Program-made: the position numbers and the translations under genes | From: an uncultured Eubacteriales bacterium | GTDB taxonomy: Bacteria > Bacillota_A > Clostridia > Christensenellales > Aristaeellaceae | Assembly (NCBI GenBank): GCA_900321945.1 | Contig: ONXY01000165.1 | Span: 1-11,635 of the forward strand | Direction of reading: 5' to 3' | DNA: 11,635 nucleotides | Shown here: positions 1-8,218 of the stretch, piece by piece | Numbering within the stretch: the first letter of the stretch is position 1 | Layout: every line of letters begins with the position of its first letter | The notes under the pieces: generated by a model | Databases searched by the model: none | Seen by the model: the letters and a program-made list of their open reading frames with translations, nothing else | What the model was told of the DNA's origin: nothing

Positions 1-762
1 GACGATCCGGGCGTGGAAATCACCTACGGAGAGACGGGATACGGCACGCTGCTGCTGATCGCCCGCCACGAGACGGAAACCCTGGACTATATCGCCTTCC
101 TGTCCATTTACAAGGGGTACTTCATCGAATTCGTGCTGGCGCCCTCGGAACAGGCGGAGGACAAGAACCTGACGGAAGACCAGCTGAAAGCCTGCATCGA
201 CTTCCTGACGGAGCTGGACTTCATTCCCGCGGTCGTGCCGGTGGGCGGAAACTGGCAGATGGTGGCCGGGAAGACCGTCATCACCAACCTCAGGGATTAC
301 GACGCGGAAGCGAACACGGTAAAGGCTGAGGCGATGCGCAGCATCACCCTGGATCCCGCGGAGATCGACGGCCTGAAAGCCGGAGACAAGCTGACCGTCG
401 GACAGGAGACCTTTGAGATCGATACGATCGAAAAGGACGAATACGGCGACATCATCATCAACGACGAGCTCATCCTGACGGCCGCGGACGACGGACTCCA
501 CGCCTACATGTACGACCATGAGTATATGGAAGCGTTCGTCAACCTGACGCTGACCGTGCCGGACGGAGTGGTCTTCGTGGACGGGATCAATCCGGAGACG
601 GGCGAGATCCTGGAGCAGCCGACTGAGCACACCGCGGAGGAGCTGAAAGCGATGCTGGCCGCCGGCGGATATCCGGACTTCGCTTCGGACAACGTGTACG
701 TCACCTTCGACGACAACGGAGAGATGACGCGGGTCGAGCGCTTCTACACACCCTGGCAGTAA
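1..762 (+). CDS. Hypothetical protein, 5'-truncated by window edge
   Basis: The reading frame is open from base 1 to a TAA at 760-762. The first possible start inside the window is a GTG at 13 without a convincing ribosome binding site, and the frame continues upstream of it, so the true start is probably outside the window. About 253 codons are visible. The protein is very acidic (many Asp/Glu) and has no membrane segment in the visible part. It looks built of beta-rich, soluble or cell-surface modules: an N-terminal part with hydrophobic strands and a helix near residues 50-75, a middle part with a KAGDKLTVG-like strand-turn pattern, and a C-terminal tail ending in VERFYTPWQ. I do not recognise the family. 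An exported or lipid-anchored protein whose signal peptide lies upstream is possible but cannot be shown here. A GC-rich hairpin follows 47 bases after the stop. Confidence 0.75.
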   Translation, partial: DDPGVEITYGETGYGTLLLIARHETETLDYIAFLSIYKGYFIEFVLAPSEQAEDKNLTEDQLKACIDFLTELDFIPAVVPVGGNWQMVAGKTVITNLRDYDAEANTVKAEAMRSITLDPAEIDGLKAGDKLTVGQETFEIDTIEKDEYGDIIINDELILTAADDGLHAYMYDHEYMEAFVNLTLTVPDGVVFVDGINPETGEILEQPTEHTAEELKAMLAAGGYPDFASDNVYVTFDDNGEMTRVERFYTPWQ

Positions 763-808
763 CGGCGGGGAAACAAACCCGCATATCATCGGAACAGACC
801 ATACAGAA

Positions 809-840
809 GCCGTCAGCGCGGGCAGCTCCGCGCTGACGGC
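809..840 (+). terminator. Perfect 13-bp GC-rich hairpin, possible terminator without T-tract
   Basis: GCCGTCAGCGCGG (809-821) and CCGCGCTGACGGC (828-840) are exact inverted repeats around a 6-base loop. The hairpin lies 47 bases past the stop of the upstream gene and 129 bases before the STAS gene start. There is no run of T after it (GTCGTGATTC follows), so it is not a classical intrinsic terminator. It may instead be a factor-dependent end, an RNA-stabilising 3' hairpin or a processing site. Confidence 0.5.
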
Positions 841-969
841 GTCGTGATTCCCGGGAAGTACGTTTCCGGAGCTGTTCCGGAACATACGGAGATCCATTCG
901 CCGGATCCGGGCGTTCCCGCAAAGCGGACGGACGGATCCGTTTCATCGGACCGGAAGGAGGAAAAAACA

Positions 970-1266
970 GTGACCATTACCAGGAAACAGAACGGAACGG
1001 AACTGGAGATCGCCCTGGAGGGCCGCCTGGACACCATGACGGCCCCGGAGCTGGAGGCGGAGCTGAAGCGGAGCCTGGACGGCGTCGAAAGCCTGACAAT
1101 CGATTTCAGCAAGCTGGACTATATCTCTTCCGCGGGGCTGCGGGTGATTCTGACCGCGCACAAGACCATGAGTTCCAGGAACGGCATGAAGGTGACGCAC
1201 GTCAACGAAATCGTTCAGGAAGTGTTCGACGTGACCGGATTCGCGGATATTCTGACGGTTGAGTGA
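970..1266 (+). CDS. STAS-domain anti-sigma factor antagonist (SpoIIAA/RsbV-like)
   Basis: This 98-residue protein is the typical length of a single-domain STAS anti-anti-sigma factor. In partner switching, the unphosphorylated form binds an anti-sigma kinase and frees its client, and phosphorylation of a conserved Ser blocks binding. Visible features are the N-terminal strands ending in EGRLDTMTAPELE (about 17-29) and the core motif DFSKLDYISSAGLRVIL (45-61). By alignment with the DSxG motif of SpoIIAA/RsbV, Ser54 is the likely phosphosite. The usual Asp before it is Ser53, as in the common ISSAGLR variants. I chose the GTG at 970 because GGAAGGAGG lies about 10 bases upstream. A longer in-frame start at 844 would add 42 residues that do not look like protein. 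The next gene begins 107 bases downstream. The stop overlaps an in-frame GTG of the next ORF, but that would give an implausible Arg-rich extension. Confidence 0.92.
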   Translation: MTITRKQNGTELEIALEGRLDTMTAPELEAELKRSLDGVESLTIDFSKLDYISSAGLRVILTAHKTMSSRNGMKVTHVNEIVQEVFDVTGFADILTVE

Positions 1267-1373
1267 GACGGGAGCCTTCCGGAACGGGCGCGGCGCGGAA
1301 ACGCGGCCGGCGCGGGAGCGGGAGAAAACGGTCCGGCCGGAGACGGCCGCGAAAGAGGAGAGGAACTGAGACG

Positions 1374-1979
1374 ATGAAAACAGATATCATTACGGTTTCC
1401 GGCAGAGGGCCGGGAATGGAAGCGGCGCTGAAGCAGGCGGACAAGGTGGCCGCATATAAGGAGATGACGGGGAAGAACGCCCTGCACCTGCGCCTGCTGA
1501 CCGAGGAAATGATGGGCATGATGCGGTCCATCACCGGCGCGCCGGAGGGAACGTTCTGGATTGAGGACGAAGACGGGGTCTACCAGCTCCATCTCCGCGT
1601 CCGGACGCTGCTGAACAGCGAGAAGAGGGAGAAGCTGCTTTCCGCGTCCAGCACGGGCCGGAACGAGTCCGCAAAGGGCCTGATGGGCCGTCTGCGGGAT
1701 TTCTTCGACTGGGGATCCGACGAGGACCTTTCAGCCATATCCAGCCCGCTTCTTCTGCCGGACATGTTCGACCATTCGAGCTCGCCGGCCCTGGACTGGG
1801 AGTGGTCCATGACGCGGTACCGGAGCGCGCTGTCCGAGCGGATGGAACAGAACGATCCGGACGCGCTGGAAGCCTGGGACGAACTGGAGAAATCCGTCGT
1901 GAAGCACGTGGCGGACGACGTGAAGGTCTTTATCCGCGGCGGCGTAGTGGAGATGATCATCCTGAAGAAAATGGCATGA
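1374..1979 (+). CDS. ATP-binding-protein-like anti-sigma factor (RsbW-like), degenerate ATP site
   Basis: This 201-residue protein starts at ATG 1374, with GAGGAGAGGAA 9-19 bases upstream. Residues about 38-55 (LHLRLLTEEMMGMMRSI) resemble the N-box helix of the GHKL/HATPase_c_2 fold of RsbW/SpoIIAB (typically LALNEALTNAIRHA). The essential Asn is absent. The strand after it (YQLHLRV) lacks the Asp-x-Gly of the G1 box. A GRNESAKGLMGRLRDFF stretch could be a remnant of the G2 box. About 75 residues follow that are not part of a normal RsbW, ending in KVFIRGGVVEMIILKKM. Its place directly after a STAS gene and before a phosphatase relic supports an anti-sigma/partner-switch role. ATP binding and kinase activity are doubtful. 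The fold assignment is inferred from context and pattern only. The stop overlaps the next ORF as ATGA. Confidence 0.7.
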   Translation: MKTDIITVSGRGPGMEAALKQADKVAAYKEMTGKNALHLRLLTEEMMGMMRSITGAPEGTFWIEDEDGVYQLHLRVRTLLNSEKREKLLSASSTGRNESAKGLMGRLRDFFDWGSDEDLSAISSPLLLPDMFDHSSSPALDWEWSMTRYRSALSERMEQNDPDALEAWDELEKSVVKHVADDVKVFIRGGVVEMIILKKMA

Positions 1980-2269
1980 CCGCCGGAAAGCGGATGGAAC
2001 GGATAAACGGGATCATGGGTAAAGGACGGGTGAAAGAGCATCATTCGCTTACCATGAGAACCTCCGCCGCGCGCTGCCTTCTTCCGGGCACGGCCGTGCC
2101 GGCGACCGGCCTGAACTGCTATGCGCTGAATATGTACGCGCAGTGTATCCGCCGCCGCGATCCACGCCTCCATGTCCGCCGGGCTGTTGACAGCTTCGTG
2201 AAGGACGCGGAGCAGTTTGACGATCTGACGATGCTGTGCCTTGAGTACAAGGGAAAACAGGAAGGCTGA
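1976..2269 (+). pseudogene. Relic of SpoIIE/RsbU-type PP2C phosphatase, only the C-terminal end recognisable
   Basis: A 97-codon ORF begins at an ATGA overlap with the preceding gene. A second possible start is ATG 2015. Its last ~26 residues (RRAVDSFVKDAEQFDDLTML and following) match the terminal helix and strand of SpoIIE-type PP2C phosphatases, including the FDD(L/I)T motif whose Asp binds the catalytic metal in that family. The rest of the ~200-residue catalytic domain, with its GDxxD motifs, is missing. The N-terminal part is basic (MGKGRVKEHHSLTMRTSAAR). A moderately hydrophobic stretch follows (about LLPGTAVPATGLNCYAL) that could be the first membrane anchor of the original protein. 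A large internal in-frame deletion would explain this shape, but that is inference. The gene lies where the phosphatase of a STAS/kinase/phosphatase module is expected. No catalytic activity is possible. It could still be translated. Confidence 0.65.
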
Positions 2270-2312
2270 GAACCGCCGCGGCGGAAGCCGGCGCGGAGAG
2301 GAGCGATCGATC

Positions 2313-2789
2313 ATGGACAACCAGCTTTTCCGCAGGAAGAGCCTCGACCACATTTCCTCCCCGGAGGAACTGCACGACTACATACGGGTTCCGGGCCCGA
2401 GAGTCTGGATGCTCCTGGCGGCCGTGCTGGTCCTGCTGGCGGGCTTTATCGCGTATGCCGGCACCGCCGTGATGGAGAATACCCTTCCCGTACGCGTGCG
2501 GGTGCAGACAACGGAGACGGCGGGAGAGGACCGGGACGGAAACGGCGCGCCGCGTCACACGGAGATCTTTTTTTACCTCCCGGCTTCTCAGAAGGACGCC
2601 GTGAAAGCCGGTATGGCCGTCCGGATTGGAACGGATACCGGGAAGGTCAGCCAGACGGGAACGGCGGACGACGGGAGGACTGTCTGCACCGTCGAGCCGG
2701 ACAGGGGAATCACGCCGCCGCCGGACGGCGAGTACGACGCGGAGCTGATCCTAGAAAGGACGACGCCGATCAGCTTCCTGTGGGAATGA
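2313..2789 (+). CDS. NHLM/NHLP-type secretion accessory (HlyD-like) protein, short form
   Basis: This 158-residue protein starts at ATG 2313, preceded by GGAGAGGAG. It opens with a conserved-looking segment (NQLFRRKSLDHISSPEELHD) seen at the start of NHLP bacteriocin-system secretion proteins. A single membrane helix follows at about 31-52 (VWMLLAAVLVLLAGFIAY), then an extracytoplasmic domain of about 105 residues with an IFFYLPASQKDAVKAGMAVR stretch like the barrel-type repeat of HlyD-family adaptors. Typical HlyD/MFP proteins exceed 300 residues and have long coiled-coil and lipoyl parts. Neither is visible here, so this is a minimal version. It should sit in the cytoplasmic membrane beside the two ABC proteins encoded next. 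Its stop overlaps an in-frame ATG of the following gene (ATGA at 2786), which points to an operon. Confidence 0.82.
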   Translation: MDNQLFRRKSLDHISSPEELHDYIRVPGPRVWMLLAAVLVLLAGFIAYAGTAVMENTLPVRVRVQTTETAGEDRDGNGAPRHTEIFFYLPASQKDAVKAGMAVRIGTDTGKVSQTGTADDGRTVCTVEPDRGITPPPDGEYDAELILERTTPISFLWE

Positions 2790-2803
2790 CGGGGGAGACG
2801 GTC

Positions 2804-4984
2804 ATGCCTGATAAGAAAACAAACAAACCCGTCAGAAACGGCGTGGCGAAGGTGCCGATGATCATGCAGATGGAGGCGCTGGAATGCGGCGCGGCCTGTC
2901 TGGCCATGGTACTCGCGTACTACGGGAAATGGATTCCGCTGGAGCAGGTGCGCCTGGACTGCGGCGTCAGCCGGGACGGTTCCAATATGAAAAACGTGTT
3001 CCTCGCGGCGCAGAGCTACGGGCTGGAGGTTCACGGATACCGCATGGAACTGGACGGAATCACGAAATCGGCCTCCTTTCCGTGCATCATCCACTGGGAA
3101 TTCAATCATTTTGTGGTACTGAACGGGTTCCGGAAGAACAAGGCTGTCATCAACGACCCGGCGCGGGGTACGGTGCAGATCGGCATGGAGGAGTTCGACC
3201 GGGCTTTCACCGGGCTGGTGCTGACCTTCGAGCCTTCCGAAAGCTTCGAGCCTTCCGGAAAGCGCAGGAGCACCCTGGATTTCGCCCGGAAACGCCTGAG
3301 AGGCGCGGGTCCCGCCGTGGCCTTTGTGGCGCTGACGTCCGTCATCGCGGGGCTTTTCGGCGTAATCAATCCCGTGATGTCCCGTATTTTTTACGACCGT
3401 CTCCTGACGGGAAAGGCTCCGGAATGGCTGGCGCCTTTCCTGCTGGCCCTGTCGGCGCTGGCGGTTTTCCAGCTGATTCTGATGTGGGCCCAGTCCGTAT
3501 ACAGCCTGAAGATCAACGGAAAGATGGCCATCGAGGGGAACGCCTCCTATATGTGGAAAGTGCTCCGCCTGCCGATGGAATTCTTTTCCCAGAGAATGAC
3601 AGGCGATATCCTGCAGCGCCAGAGCATGAACGCCTCCATCGCGGGAGCGCTGGCCGATACGGTGGGTCCGCTCGCGCTGAATACGGTCATGATGATCTTC
3701 TATCTGACCGTCATGCTGCGCTACAGCCCGCTGATGACGCTGGCGGGCGTCGCTTCCGTCGCGGTCAATCTGGCTGCCGCCCGGTACCTGGCCAGGAAGC
3801 GGGTCAACATTACCCGGGTGCAGATGCGGGACGAGGGAAAGCTGGCTTCGGCCACGATGGCGGGGATCAGCATGACCGAAACCATCCGGTCCTCCGGATC
3901 CGAGGAGGGCTTTTTCCGCAAATGGAGCGGATACCAGGCGTCCGTAAACACGCAGCGGGTGAAATACGCATCCCTGAGCGCCCGGGCGGGCCTGATTCCG
4001 CAGCTCATCAGCTCGGCGTGCAACTACGCGGTGCTGTTCCTCGGCGTATGGCTGGCAATGAACGGCCGTTTTACGCTGGGAATGATTACGGCTTTCCAGG
4101 GACTTCTCGCGTCCTTCATGGAGCCCGCCGCGACGCTGGTCGACGCGGGCCGGACCATCCAGGAGATGCGTACGGAAATGGAGCGCGTGGAGGACGTCCT
4201 TGAATATCCGGACGACCCGGCGGTGAGCTACGGCGCGGAAAACGGGGAAGAGGACTACGCCAAGCTGAAGGGGGAGGTTGAGCTCCGCCATGTGACTTTC
4301 GGGTATTCACGTCTCGGCGCTCCCGCCGTCACGGATTTCTCCATGCACCTGAAGCCCGGCGGCCGCGTCGCCATCGTCGGAGCCAGCGGATGCGGAAAAT
4401 CCACCGTCAGCAAGCTGATCACCGGCCTGTACCGGCCGTGGGAAGGAGAGATCCTGTTCGACGGCAGACCCGTCTCCCGGATTCCCCGGGCCATATTTAC
4501 GGGCTCCGTGGCTATGGTGGATCAGGATATCGTGCTGTTCGAGGACACGATCGCAAACAATATCCGGATGTGGGATGAGTCCATCGAGGACTTCGAGGTG
4601 GTGCTTGCCGCCCGCGACGCCCAGATCCACGACGATATCGTGCAGCGGCCGGGAGGATACCGGGGGAGGCTGACCGAGAACGGCAGGGATCTTTCCGGCG
4701 GACAGCGCCAGCGGCTGGAAATCGCGCGGGTGCTGGCGCAGGATCCTTCCGTCATTATCCTGGATGAAGCCACCAGCGCGCTGGACGCCCAGACGGAGTA
4801 CGACCTGGTAAAGGCGGTCCGGGACCGGGGAATCACGTGCATCGTGGTCGCGCACCGGCTGTCCACGATCCGGGACTGCGACGAGATCATCGTGCTGGAC
4901 CGGGGAAAAATCGCGGAGCGCGGCACGCATGAGGAGCTTTTTGCCAAAGGCGGCTTATACACGGAACTTGTCACGTCGGAATAA
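2804..4984 (+). CDS. NHLM-type peptide exporter: C39 peptidase / ABC permease / ATPase
   Basis: This 726-residue protein processes and exports peptides. An N-terminal C39 cysteine peptidase (about 15-145) cuts double-glycine-type leaders. The membrane domain (about 165-460) and the nucleotide-binding domain (about 485-725) drive transport. Peptidase residues are intact: Gln22 (oxyanion hole), Cys28 in ALECGAACL, His102 in NHFVVL and Asp118 in NDPARG. ATPase motifs are intact: Walker A GASGCGKST near 526, signature LSGGQRQRL near 629, Walker B VIILDEATSALD near 650 and switch His in VAHRLS near 683. The start at ATG 2804 has GGGGGAG six bases upstream. ATG 2786, overlapping the previous stop, would add six residues. 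The linker after the peptidase carries an 18-base tandem duplication (FEPSES/FEPSGK). The family match is to the first ABC protein of NHLM bacteriocin systems. The stop codon lies in a 10-base tandem repeat. Confidence 0.95.
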   Translation: MPDKKTNKPVRNGVAKVPMIMQMEALECGAACLAMVLAYYGKWIPLEQVRLDCGVSRDGSNMKNVFLAAQSYGLEVHGYRMELDGITKSASFPCIIHWEFNHFVVLNGFRKNKAVINDPARGTVQIGMEEFDRAFTGLVLTFEPSESFEPSGKRRSTLDFARKRLRGAGPAVAFVALTSVIAGLFGVINPVMSRIFYDRLLTGKAPEWLAPFLLALSALAVFQLILMWAQSVYSLKINGKMAIEGNASYMWKVLRLPMEFFSQRMTGDILQRQSMNASIAGALADTVGPLALNTVMMIFYLTVMLRYSPLMTLAGVASVAVNLAAARYLARKRVNITRVQMRDEGKLASATMAGISMTETIRSSGSEEGFFRKWSGYQASVNTQRVKYASLSARAGLIPQLISSACNYAVLFLGVWLAMNGRFTLGMITAFQGLLASFMEPAATLVDAGRTIQEMRTEMERVEDVLEYPDDPAVSYGAENGEEDYAKLKGEVELRHVTFGYSRLGAPAVTDFSMHLKPGGRVAIVGASGCGKSTVSKLITGLYRPWEGEILFDGRPVSRIPRAIFTGSVAMVDQDIVLFEDTIANNIRMWDESIEDFEVVLAARDAQIHDDIVQRPGGYRGRLTENGRDLSGGQRQRLEIARVLAQDPSVIILDEATSALDAQTEYDLVKAVRDRGITCIVVAHRLSTIRDCDEIIVLDRGKIAERGTHEELFAKGGLYTELVTSE
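3226..3262 (+). repeat. 18-base tandem duplication in the peptidase-to-membrane linker
   Basis: CTTCGAGCCTTCCGAAAG (3226-3243) is followed immediately by a near-identical copy beginning at 3244 that gains one G at 3258. In protein this gives FEPSES then FEPSGK, in the short linker between the C39 peptidase and the membrane domain of the exporter. The duplication is in frame and so is tolerated. Confidence 0.8.
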
Positions 4985-5010
4985 CCCGGAATAACCCGGA
5001 ATAACCCGGA
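4977..5010 (+). repeat. Three exact 10-base tandem repeats across the exporter stop codon
   Basis: The unit ATAACCCGGA occurs three times without change (4981-5010), preceded by a partial CGGA (4977-4980). The first TAA (4982-4984) is the stop of the upstream ABC gene. Because the unit is 10 bases long, the three TAAs fall in the three different reading frames. The repeat lies between two exporter genes, 24 bases before the next start, and does not touch that gene's ribosome binding site. Confidence 0.95.
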
Positions 5011-5034
5011 AGAACGGGCTGCGGAGGACGGACG

Positions 5035-7233
5035 ATGGGCTGGTTTAACGAACAGATCAGGCAGCGCATGGAGAGCGACCGGAATATTCTGGAAGACTCT
5101 TTTTTCCGCATGGCCGGCGTGATCACGGACGGACGGAGACCGGACAGACCGGGGGACGGGAGACCGGGTTCGAGGGAAGCGCTGAACGATATTCTGAAAT
5201 ACTACCGGCTGCGGCCGGCGGAGATTCCGGAAAGCATAAAAGACCCGGATGAACAGCTGAAATACGTCCTCCGTCCGACGGGCCTGATGGTCCGGGAAGC
5301 GGAGCTGGAGGAAAACTGGCGGAAGGACGCCTGCGGCCCCATGCTTGGGTATATAAAGGAAACAGGAGCCGCCGCGGCGCTGATTCCGGACCCCGTATCC
5401 GGATACCGCTTCAGGGATCCCGCCACCGGCCGGAAACGCCGCGTGACCCGGAAGGCGGAGAGACTGTTTTCCCGGGAGGCGCTGTGCTTCTACCAGCCGC
5501 TTCCGATGAAAAAGCTGGGCGTTCGCGATCTGCTGGGGTACATGAAAAACAGCGTCACCCGCGGCGATATATTTCTGATTATCCTGGCGACCCTGGCGGC
5601 AGTGCTGCTGGGACTGATTGAGCCGCGGGTATACGGACTGATTACGGGAACCGTTCTGAAAACAGGGAACAAACGCCTTCTGGCCGGGGCGGCGTCGTTT
5701 CTGCTGGGCAGCGCCTTCGCCGCCCGGATGATCGACGTAATCAAAAACCTGCTGACGAAGCGGATATACATTAAAACGTCCCAGGCGGTTGAAGCCTCGA
5801 TGATGATGCGCATTCTGTCGCTGCCGGTCAGCTTCTTCCGCGGATTTTCCTCCGGCGAACTGGCCAACCGGGCTTCCGGCGTCACCTCCCTGTGCGACGT
5901 AATGGCCGACGGCATCCTGTCCGCGGGACTGGGCAGCCTGATGTCCCTCCTGTACGTGGGGCAGATCTTTCAGTTCGCGCCGGCGCTGGTCCGGCCCTCC
6001 ATCCTGGTTATCCTGGCCACCGCGGCGGTGAGCCTGATTTCAGCTTTCCTGCGGACCGGAATCTCCCGGGAGCGGATGAAACTTTCCGCGGAGGAGCAGG
6101 GGATGGGCTACGCCATCCTCAACGGCATCCAGAAAATCCGCCTTTCCGGTTCGGAAAAGCGGGCCTTCGCGCGGTGGGGCCGGCTTTACGCCAGGGGGGC
6201 GGAGCTGGATTACAATCCTCCCGCGCTGCTGAGGCTGAACAGCGTGATCACCACCGGGATCTCTCTGGCGGGCACGGTCGTACTGTATTATCTGGCGGTC
6301 AGAACCGGCGTGGCTGAGCATCAGTACTATGCTTTCAGCGCCGCCTACGGACGGGTCGTAGGCGCGTTCTCCGCCCTGACCGGCGTCGCGGCTTCCCTGA
6401 CGGCAGCCAGACCGGTGCTGGAGATGGCGGAGCCGATTCTGAGCGCGGAGCCGGAGGTGACCGCCGAAAAGCAGCCGGTCGGACAGATGAGCGGAAATAT
6501 CGAAATGAGTCACGTGTCTTTCCGCTACGACGAGGACAGCCCCTATATTCTGGAAAACCTGAGCCTGAGCATCCGGGCCGGGGAGTACGTCGCCATCGTG
6601 GGACGGACCGGCTGCGGAAAGTCCACGCTGGTCCGGCTGCTGCTGGGTTTTGAGAAGCCCGAGAAAGGCGCGGTCTACTACGACCGCCGCGAACTGAACA
6701 GTCTGGATCCGCGATCTCTCCGGAAGCATATCGGCACGGTCATACAGAACGGACAGCTGTTCCAGGGGGACATCTTCTCAAACATCACGCTTTCCGCGCC
6801 GCAGCTGACGCTGGAGGAAGCCTGGGAAGCGGCGGAAACTGCGGGCATCGCGCAGGATATCCGCGAAATGCCCATGGGGATGTACACTGTGATATCCGAA
6901 GGCCAGGGGGGCATCTCCGGCGGTCAGAAGCAGCGCCTGCTGATCGCCCGGGCCGTCGCGCCGAAGCCGAAAATCCTGATCTTTGACGAAGCGACCTCGG
7001 CGCTGGACAATAAAACGCAGAAGCAGGTGTCGGAGGCGCTGGACAGGCTGCGCTGCACCCGCGTCGTCATCGCCCACCGGCTGAGCACCATCCGGAACTG
7101 CGACCGCATCCTGGTCATGGATCACGGCGCCATCGCCGAGGAAGGAACCTACGAGGAGCTGATCGCGCGGAACGGCATTTTCGCGGGGCTCGTCGCGCGG
7201 CAGAGGCTGGATATCGACACAGAGGAAGCATAA
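5035..7233 (+). CDS. NHLM-type peptide exporter: second ABC permease / ATPase, degenerate peptidase-like N-terminus
   Basis: This 732-residue partner of the upstream peptidase-ABC protein probably forms a heterodimeric exporter with it. Residues 1-160 are the variable and degenerate N-terminal region typical of the second ABC protein of NHLM systems. It contains NWRKDACGPMLGY near 93-106 and GYRFRDPATG near 122-131. Cys100 is present but the His/Asp of a working C39 site cannot be identified. Membrane helices run from about 175 to 450. The ATPase domain has Walker A GRTGCGKST near 523, signature ISGGQKQRL near 627, Walker B ILIFDEATSALD near 646 and switch His in IAHRLS near 680. The start is ATG 5035, with CGGAGG about 8 bases upstream. 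The gene lies 50 bases after the first ABC gene, across the 10-base repeat, and is followed 18 bases later by a strong terminator. Both ATPase sites of the pair look catalytically competent. Confidence 0.93.
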   Translation: MGWFNEQIRQRMESDRNILEDSFFRMAGVITDGRRPDRPGDGRPGSREALNDILKYYRLRPAEIPESIKDPDEQLKYVLRPTGLMVREAELEENWRKDACGPMLGYIKETGAAAALIPDPVSGYRFRDPATGRKRRVTRKAERLFSREALCFYQPLPMKKLGVRDLLGYMKNSVTRGDIFLIILATLAAVLLGLIEPRVYGLITGTVLKTGNKRLLAGAASFLLGSAFAARMIDVIKNLLTKRIYIKTSQAVEASMMMRILSLPVSFFRGFSSGELANRASGVTSLCDVMADGILSAGLGSLMSLLYVGQIFQFAPALVRPSILVILATAAVSLISAFLRTGISRERMKLSAEEQGMGYAILNGIQKIRLSGSEKRAFARWGRLYARGAELDYNPPALLRLNSVITTGISLAGTVVLYYLAVRTGVAEHQYYAFSAAYGRVVGAFSALTGVAASLTAARPVLEMAEPILSAEPEVTAEKQPVGQMSGNIEMSHVSFRYDEDSPYILENLSLSIRAGEYVAIVGRTGCGKSTLVRLLLGFEKPEKGAVYYDRRELNSLDPRSLRKHIGTVIQNGQLFQGDIFSNITLSAPQLTLEEAWEAAETAGIAQDIREMPMGMYTVISEGQGGISGGQKQRLLIARAVAPKPKILIFDEATSALDNKTQKQVSEALDRLRCTRVVIAHRLSTIRNCDRILVMDHGAIAEEGTYEELIARNGIFAGLVARQRLDIDTEEA

Positions 7234-7251
7234 CCGGAATGCCGAAGACAG

Positions 7252-7316
7252 AAAAAGAGGCCGTCCCCGGGATGATATCACTTCAGTGATCGTCCCGGAG
7301 ACGGCCTCTTCTTTTT
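7252..7316. terminator. Bidirectional intrinsic terminator after the exporter operon
   Basis: AAGAGGCCGTC (7255-7265) pairs with GACGGCCTCTT (7300-7310). The inner arms CCGGGA (7267-7272) and TCCCGG (7293-7298) and a tip ATCAC-TTCA-GTGAT lengthen the stem. The + side ends in TTCTTTTT (7309-7316) and the - side in an A-run (7252-7256) that gives a T-run on the opposite strand. It therefore can stop transcription both from the exporter and from anything coming from the right. The transposase relic's frame runs into the right arm. Confidence 0.93.
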
Positions 7317-7559
7317 CCGGCGGAAATCCCCCCCTGTCCGATTTGTCAGTTGATGATACAGGCTATATCCGAGGCACCCAGCTTCATAGCCGCATAAAAT
7401 ACCGCATTCTTTATTGTGAACTCCAAGCCGCTCTTTCAGCCGGTTGATGAAGTGAACCACAAGCTTATAATCCGGTTCAATTTGAATCTGAGCCAGCACA
7501 TTCTCTTCCTCACCGAGGATCGGTTCATCCAGCATCTGACAGTATACGGGTAAATCCAC
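7278..7559 (-). pseudogene. Truncated IS110-family transposase relic (N-terminal part only)
   Basis: The - strand frame has a GTG at 7559 and is open back to a TGA near 7583. Residues about 26-72 (IEPDYKLVVHFINRLKERLG, then CGYEAGCLGYSLYHQLT) match the N-terminal RuvC-like DEDD domain of IS110-family transposases, which usually carry CGYEAGCLGYxLYHQL. The Asp of SVDL and the Glu of CGYEAG fit the first two catalytic acids. Recognisable homology stops at about 7338. Beyond this the frame reads into the exporter terminator and ends at 7278-7280. Full-length enzymes are roughly 330-400 residues, so about 80% is missing, including the Tnp20 domain and its catalytic Ser. This stretch has lower GC than its neighbours, consistent with acquired DNA. 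It cannot transpose. Confidence 0.78.
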
Positions 7560-7701
7560 GCTGCCGCAAATGCGGGGGTCACTTCATATTATCTAAAATA
7601 CAAGAATAACCGAACCGGGACACAGCTTGTTCTACCGGCGGCGGACGCGGGCGGCAATACGTCCGCTTTCTCCGGAAAGATGCGTAAATTGCTGAATTTT
7701 C

Positions 7702-7730
7702 TTGCCAAACACGCCCGGTTTTGGTAAAAT
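7702..7730 (+). promoter_or_regulatory. Sigma-70-type promoter of the ATP synthase operon
   Basis: A -35 box TTGCCA (7702-7707), a 17-base spacer and a -10 box TAAAAT (7725-7730) with an extended -10 TG (7722-7723) lie just upstream of atpI. Transcription should start near 7737, giving a leader of about 25 bases with a ribosome binding site GGGGAGG (7749-7755). No other equally good promoter is visible between the exporter terminator and the end of the window. Confidence 0.85.
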
Positions 7731-7762
7731 AAAACATCAACAATCAGCGGGGAGGCGTACCC

Positions 7763-8218
7763 ATGGCAAAGCTGAATCCGACGGTCAGGAAGGAGACGGC
7801 TTATATCGCGGCGTGGGTGCTGATCCTTTCCGTTATCATGGAGGCCGTTTTTCTGCTGCTGAGGCGGTGGGAAATGCCGGTATTGACCGGGAACCTGACC
7901 GGCGGGATTCTGGCCGCGGCGAACTTCCTGCTGCTGGGCATCACGGTGGCGGGCGCGGCGGGCGGGCCGCCGGAAAAGGTGGCGATGAAGGTCCGGTCCT
8001 CCATGACTGCGAGGATGCTGGGCATGGCGGCCGTATGCGCCTTCGCCGTGGGCGTCCTGCACACGAACGTTTACGCGACGCTTCTTCCCCTGCTCTTCCC
8101 GAGAATCGGCATCGCCTTCCGGCCGCTGATCGACAGAAAGCGCGGAAAGAACAACCCGGACGCGGAGGGCAGGAACCCGGCCGTTCCGGACCCGGAAGGA
8201 AGTGACCTGCTTGACTGA
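7763..8218 (+). CDS. atpI: ATP synthase subunit I (AtpI), assembly factor
   Basis: This 151-residue membrane protein is the first gene of the atp operon. AtpI proteins help assemble the c-ring of F-type ATP synthase. Four hydrophobic segments are seen at about 13-35, 42-66, 81-100 and 103-122, followed by a charged, Pro/Gly-rich cytoplasmic tail (about 127-151). There is little sequence conservation in this family, so the call rests on the four-helix pattern, length and position directly before atpB. ATG 7763 has GGGGAGG with a 7-base spacing and follows the promoter at 7702-7730. Its end overlaps the likely TTG start of atpB. Confidence 0.85.
   Translation: MAKLNPTVRKETAYIAAWVLILSVIMEAVFLLLRRWEMPVLTGNLTGGILAAANFLLLGITVAGAAGGPPEKVAMKVRSSMTARMLGMAAVCAFAVGVLHTNVYATLLPLLFPRIGIAFRPLIDRKRGKNNPDAEGRNPAVPDPEGSDLLD

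Follow-up and report, generated by a model that had tools for sequence, protein, structure and literature searches.

Bases 970-7233 of the window (the whole stretch of DNA analysed here, 11,635 bases long, which seems to be one whole contig and apparently comes from an uncultured clostridial bacterium) are best explained, with a probability of about 0.55, as an NHLM peptide-export operon behind a reduced partner-switching module, in which the phosphatase and the kinase would have been lost, the STAS-W pair kept, the enzymes supplied in trans and the exporter acted upon by W. Partner switching is mainly known for the control of sigma factors. In the scheme proposed here, the ancestor, like some relatives, would have possessed a local SpoIIE phosphatase together with a kinase, and both would have been removed by deletion in the window's lineage, with the tail of the phosphatase left in an open frame. 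Phosphorylation and dephosphorylation of the STAS protein, if they still occur, would depend on enzymes encoded elsewhere; W would be an ATP-independent STAS partner, and the phosphorylation of STAS would decide whether it is free or occupied. The signal of W, as we infer, would go to the exporter (its activity or its expression) and not to a sigma factor. In the family of genome G001, NHLM exporters are recurrently flanked by partner-switch genes; this is a new observation, and it suggests that peptide export has been placed under such switches more than once. The features of the window are collected in Table 1.

Table 1. Coordinates of the genes and gene parts of the window.
Feature	Position	Strand	Profile or remark
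Gene U, open at contig start, function unknown	13..762	+	no Pfam match above cut-off
STAS anti-sigma-antagonist-like protein, 98 aa, GTG start	970..1266	+	PF01740, TIGR00377
W, 201 aa, predicted RsbW/SpoIIAB fold, Pfam-dark family	1374..1979	+	
97-codon ORF with SpoIIE phosphatase relic	1976..2269	+	
SpoIIE phosphatase 3'-end match inside the 97-codon ORF	2121..2266	+	nhmmer; secure from ~2174, weak in 2121-2173
Short NHLM accessory protein, 158 aa	2313..2789	+	residues 14-47 similar to the beginning of TIGR03794
NHLM ABC1: peptidase C39, permease and ATPase	2804..4984	+	TIGR03796
NHLM ABC2: permease and ATPase	5035..7233	+	TIGR03797

The initial annotation had described a STAS gene, an RsbW-like gene and a phosphatase remnant, all co-directional and ahead of an exporter operon, and these features are indeed found in that order. 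It had also reported the lack of a sigma factor, and none was found among the window proteins scanned with Pfam/NCBIfam-type profiles; PF13581 and PF07228 gave no match among them either. The absence of an RsbW-type kinase gene was a point overlooked at that time; the contig starts at base 1, and it is possible that a kinase gene lies upstream of it. Downstream of ABC2 are found an atpI-like gene and the genes for the ATP synthase subunits a, c, b, delta and alpha. An antisense ORF of 93 aa without a Pfam match (7278-7559) is located between ABC2 and the atp operon; we take it to resemble a piece of an IS110-type transposase. No structured RNA was detected in 1980-2175 (z -0.11), Rfam gave nothing at gathering cut-offs, and promoters and terminators were about as numerous as in shuffled sequence.

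The exporter is of the NHLM type according to its two ABC equivalogs: ABC1 reaches 916.5 bits with TIGR03796 (cut-off 853.3) and ABC2 711.8 bits with TIGR03797 (cut-off 709.4). The window therefore shares with the NHLM (also NHLP) bacteriocin export cassette (TIGR03794/03796/03797) both ABC proteins above the NCBIfam cut-offs, and differs from it in the partner-switch genes upstream and in the short accessory protein, which stays far below the cut-off of the HlyD-type TIGR03794 (21.4 bits against 156.2, over residues 14-47 only). Homologues of this accessory protein (137-333 aa) precede ABC1 in 59 of 60 exporter loci.

The STAS protein is intact and retains its serine. It matches PF01740 (E 3.4e-13), exceeds the TIGR00377 cut-off, and carries the motif YISSAGLRV, which includes the candidate phosphorylation serine and is invariant in 67/67 aligned rows. 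Its gene is immediately 5' of W in 68 of 80 loci of relatives (the best 80 of 207 found by scanning genome contigs); some of the other 12 are cut by a contig end, and L031 has STAS after W. Among the matches listed from the 308 genomes of the family of G001, no conspecific genome was recognised, the best identities to the window being 76% for W and 81% for STAS alone, and neither the 97-codon ORF nor the accessory gene was found. Homologues of gene U are located upstream of STAS-W in L003, L004, L082 and L087.

W is a conserved protein with a predicted RsbW fold and without nucleotide-binding boxes. The RsbW-like label of the initial annotation holds for the fold, which the predicted model (mean pLDDT 67.6) assigns to the RsbW/SpoIIAB type, and fails for the rest: W has no match in Pfam, NCBIfam or PADLOC, none with PF13581 at E up to 10, a best E of 0.076 against PDB sequences, and lacks the N-box Asn as well as the G1 and G2 boxes. 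The same is true of its Pfam-dark family (2442 matches; 53-75% identity to W across the 80 loci; present in 14 of 200 genomes of the order), where an Asn at 40-56 and the DxGxP motif are both absent from 54/54 aligned rows and a G2-like pattern occurs in 1/54. In relatives, the RsbW-type kinase is a separate gene, which is absent from the window. The separate kinases of neighbouring loci match PF13581 in 4/4 cases (6.6e-21 to 4.9e-26), keep the N-box Asn, D-x-G and GGLG invariant in 8/8, and show no sequence link of note with W (hhalign probability 6%). Since W has no nucleotide-binding motifs, the local kinase half of the module is absent too, and W would act independently of ATP, judging by the absent motifs and the predicted model. 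One member of the W family, P0072, is attributed to Aristaeella lactis, a cultured relative. A variant of W with 92% identity, P0004, is found on a contig of 3,344 bases; its differing N-terminus looks by eye like STAS-W spacer sequence, as though the initial codons had gone missing.

The claim that only the terminal piece of the phosphatase persists was borne out. In 11 loci (L001, L007, L016, L021, L031, L046, L054, L062, L067, L069, and L118), SpoIIE phosphatases end in a C-terminal stretch of 26-32 residues that shares 72-93% identity with the tail of the 97-codon ORF, while other phosphatases among the 31 rows gave weaker tail matches, the weakest clear ones being of 36-48%. A DNA profile built from 23 phosphatase 3' ends matches 2121-2264 (nhmmer, E 8.1e-26, 76.9 bits), the alignment being poor in 2121-2173 and good in the remainder. 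Taken together, these two results place the likeness to a phosphatase beyond chance, and the tail descends from a SpoIIE/PP2C phosphatase gene (PF07228), of which it represents the last 31-48 codons; the phosphatases of relatives used in the comparison measure 435-793 aa (that of L031 is cut by a contig end). The catalytic domain is gone, as the ORF has no match with PF07228 at E up to 10. For residues 1-48 (bases 1976-2120) no origin was detected. Residues 22-67 resemble by eye the membrane segment of L021, and a phosphatase N-terminus was considered for this part and rejected because the search gave no significant match. The other frames of 1960-2190 gave nothing significant against 2289 neighbour proteins or against the kinase, MATE, phosphatase and W profiles. 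No intact ancestor of this tail came to light (the tails of L097 and L099 are less similar). The relic itself is ordinary gene decay.

The frame that holds this relic starts in an ATGA overlap with the stop codon of W, and the suggestion that it encodes a working small protein, with the C-terminal phosphatase piece acting as a decoy for STAS or for a phosphatase, has to be weighed. A protein search with the ORF returned 136 matches, of which the best 120 were listed; P0122, a cluster of 10 member sequences that may include the window's own, keeps the frame open at 97% identity, and P0129 (147 aa, longest contig 68,977 bases) is by eye another phosphatase without its catalytic part and with the tail in frame. 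A decoy is nonetheless improbable, because 1976-2170 shows a weak codon signal (5.5 across 65 codons, the following 33 codons scoring 12.6), two of the three differences between P0122 and the window fall in the tail, and P0122 is the only whole-length relative among the 120 matches listed, nearly all the others having the tail, or barely more than it, in common with the ORF. These matches thus revealed no family extending past close kin, and a conserved family of intact 97-codon ORFs was precisely what the initial annotation had named as evidence against its own reading. P0122 bears equally on an assembly artefact that would have united two genomes at 1976-2120. Short contigs in which a similar tail is fused to other genes do exist (P0123 with PF05164, P0134 with PF04055, and P0136), and the fusions of P0123 and P0134 look like chimeras; however, P0122, a cluster of 10 member sequences, covers the ORF from end to end and departs from the window at three places, which makes an artefact here highly improbable. 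The recurrence of this allele supports the reading of a reduced module, as does the homology of the tail.

Gene orders around the relatives of the STAS-W pair were obtained with a codon-scored gene caller. In the 79 loci that could be counted (L049 was dropped, as W was not called there), the gene after W is a different one in 26, one on the opposite strand in 13, an RsbW-type kinase in 10, a SpoIIE in nine and a MATE transporter in eight, the rest comprising gaps of >300 bases (six), contig ends (four) and a STAS or W gene (three). Within 6 kb on the same strand of W, a SpoIIE is found in 16/79, a kinase in 20/79 and neither in 52/79; short contigs depress these counts, and among the 43 loci with full flanks the figures are 10 for SpoIIE, 13 for a kinase, 17 for either and three for an NHLM ABC1. 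A missing local phosphatase is consequently common, since SpoIIE is near W in only 16/79 loci. The initial annotation was right that the window has none (PF07228 has no match among its scanned proteins), but this is not special: 63/79 loci (short contigs included), and 33/43 with full flanks, likewise lack a same-strand SpoIIE within 6 kb. In each of nine genomes of relatives there are 1-8 SpoIIE genes, together with 6-10 HATPase_c_2 matches (E <= 0.001), 3-6 of them over the curated cut-off, and 1-6 rows matching W, some of which are pieces of one gene. Of the three options offered previously (a decaying module, a non-canonical control, or a phosphatase acting in trans), these two observations make the last one the likeliest. 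Enzyme supply in trans, which would hold for the window by analogy with these genomes, and a W conserved without the N-box Asn (54/54) both favor a reduced module.

Full modules are preserved in some of these relatives. L001/L107 and L046/L114 have STAS, W, a full SpoIIE and a kinase before the accessory gene and exporter (other genes follow the kinase), in agreement with the earlier proposal that a phosphatase was lost from this place; in L029/L100 and L026, too, W and the accessory gene are separated by a full phosphatase, a kinase or both. All these loci support the view that the window's module has been reduced, as does the grouping of its ABC1 with L097 and L099 (FastTree support 0.87, several deeper supports on the path being low), both of which have a single SpoIIE-kinase fusion gene directly 5' of the accessory gene (L097:7168-9639; L099:9097-11565).

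The link between module and exporter, for its part, was strengthened by recurrence. Relatives of ABC1 (E <= 1e-100) were found in 144 of the 308 genomes of the family of G001. Eighty exporter places were examined, of which 76 were the first 77 of the rank list less one of two equal-scoring places of G226, and four (L146-L149) were hand-picked from genomes with close STAS-W relatives; L154 (no ABC1 call) and 20 places with <5 kb upstream were dropped, which left 59. Co-directional partner-switch genes (STAS, W, kinase or SpoIIE) start <=5 kb upstream of the exporter in 15/59 and 3.5-5.5 kb downstream in 8/59, and lie on at least one side in 22/59 (22/55 without the hand-picked loci, all negative), compared with 2/240 overlapping 5-kb strand tiles of a control (two genes in 380 kb, sampled as 20 regularly spaced stretches of 19 kb, 10 from G008, seven from G026 and three from G009). 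This excess supports the proposed reading. Partner-switch genes located upstream but on the opposite strand occur in 2/59; the fuller arrangements of L114 and L142 are just beyond the counted range and were left out. The arrangement STAS-SpoIIE-kinase-accessory-ABC1-ABC2 is complete in L150, L151, L152, L158 and L160, while L107 and L114 show STAS-W-SpoIIE-kinase, further genes and then the accessory gene, L100 shows STAS-W-kinase-accessory, and L119 and L124 STAS-kinase-accessory. On the ABC1 tree, such arrangements fall on several branches. In three further stretches (G008, G003 and G009) a kinase lies ~9 kb downstream of the ABC1 start; of these, L215 alone also has a STAS call, which follows a large protein. 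Against the proposed reading stand the 37/59 exporter loci with no partner-switch gene in the counted ranges, the intact ancestor of the tail, which was not found, and, outside the family of G001, the 16/20 exporter loci without such genes (with profiles built from a narrow set), the others having STAS near NHLM (L193, L197, and L200), SpoIIE (L193) or a W-like gene (L201).

The main competing explanation is that STAS-W is a free-standing pair, alongside which a rearrangement brought an NHLM block edged by the tail of its former phosphatase. Several observations fit it: the other or opposite-strand genes that often follow W (26 and 13 of 79 loci), the stretch 1976-2120 of no found origin, which is scar-like, L003 and L004, where U precedes STAS-W with no exporter in the 8 kb examined downstream, and L017 and L020, where STAS-W is upstream of atpI-atpB as in the window with no exporter between. 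Also against the proposed reading, an NHLM ABC1 lies within 6 kb on the same strand of STAS-W in only 4/79 loci (L001, L009, L026, and L029; that of L046 is just past this range, at 6.9 kb), which indicates that STAS-W is not exporter-specific. Against a rearrangement, these four loci and L046 all have STAS-W upstream of, and co-directional with, the accessory gene and ABC1, 740-7800 is not enriched in terminator-like sites over shuffles, and in a careful STAS-W tree 5/6 exporter-linked pairs, the window's included, fall in one 16-row set (100/99). The exporter label requires four changes on this tree, a number reached by 6/500 shuffles, the bootstrap being not settled; the sequences thus point to a modest clustering of the exporter-linked pairs. 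A rearrangement is therefore rather unlikely. FastTree grouped the window's STAS-W with L009 and L029 (0.95), a group that was set aside as the careful tree starred the 16-row set only.

The window differs from the RsbV/RsbW/RsbU and SpoIIAA/SpoIIAB/SpoIIE systems in that the N, G1 and G2 boxes are absent from W, neither a sigma factor nor a kinase gene is seen, and the phosphatase is a tail only; the local kinase and phosphatase of partner-switching systems are both missing. The SiaB-SiaC system of Pseudomonas aeruginosa is another of the closest known systems, with no sequence relation shown. The closest known precedent appears to be BtrU/BtrV/BtrW of Bordetella, a partner switch coupled to secretion, as is proposed for the window, but to a type III system; it requires a phosphatase, a STAS protein and a kinase-type partner alike (PMC8256260). 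Literature joining NHLM export and partner switching was not found by title or abstract start, in a coverage that leaves out most subscription journals.

The surroundings are of greater interest than the relic, as they hold a Pfam-dark STAS companion of predicted RsbW fold and a repeated coupling of partner switches with NHLM exporters. The window itself may be regarded as a natural experiment, in which STAS and W were retained after the loss of the phosphatase and, apparently, of the kinase. A broader model is tentative and somewhat doubtful: the W family would consist of RsbW-fold pseudo-kinases, STAS-W would be a portable output pair whose STAS is set by kinases and SpoIIE in trans and in turn releases or retains W, and W would directly gate exporters (NHLM, perhaps MATE-kinase fusions) post-translationally and with no sigma factor. 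With the recurrent NHLM linkage, the fusions of MATE and kinase and a conserved pseudo-kinase partner, partner switching would reach export machinery across a large group of rumen and gut Clostridia, most of them uncultured, and would provide a testable handle on the control of peptide export in them.

Two other observations were made in the relatives. Between the NHLM exporter and the downstream kinase, L213 (8349-11759), L214 and L215 encode a large protein of 1049-1136 aa, with a secretion signal by eye, which is a possible export substrate. A MATE-type gene is found within 6 kb on the same strand in 22/79 STAS-W loci, and in L008 (800-2536) a MATE transporter with a C-terminal RsbW-type kinase domain (PF01554 and PF13581) lies beside STAS-W; fusions of this kind were also labelled, with local profiles, in L016, L057 and L073.
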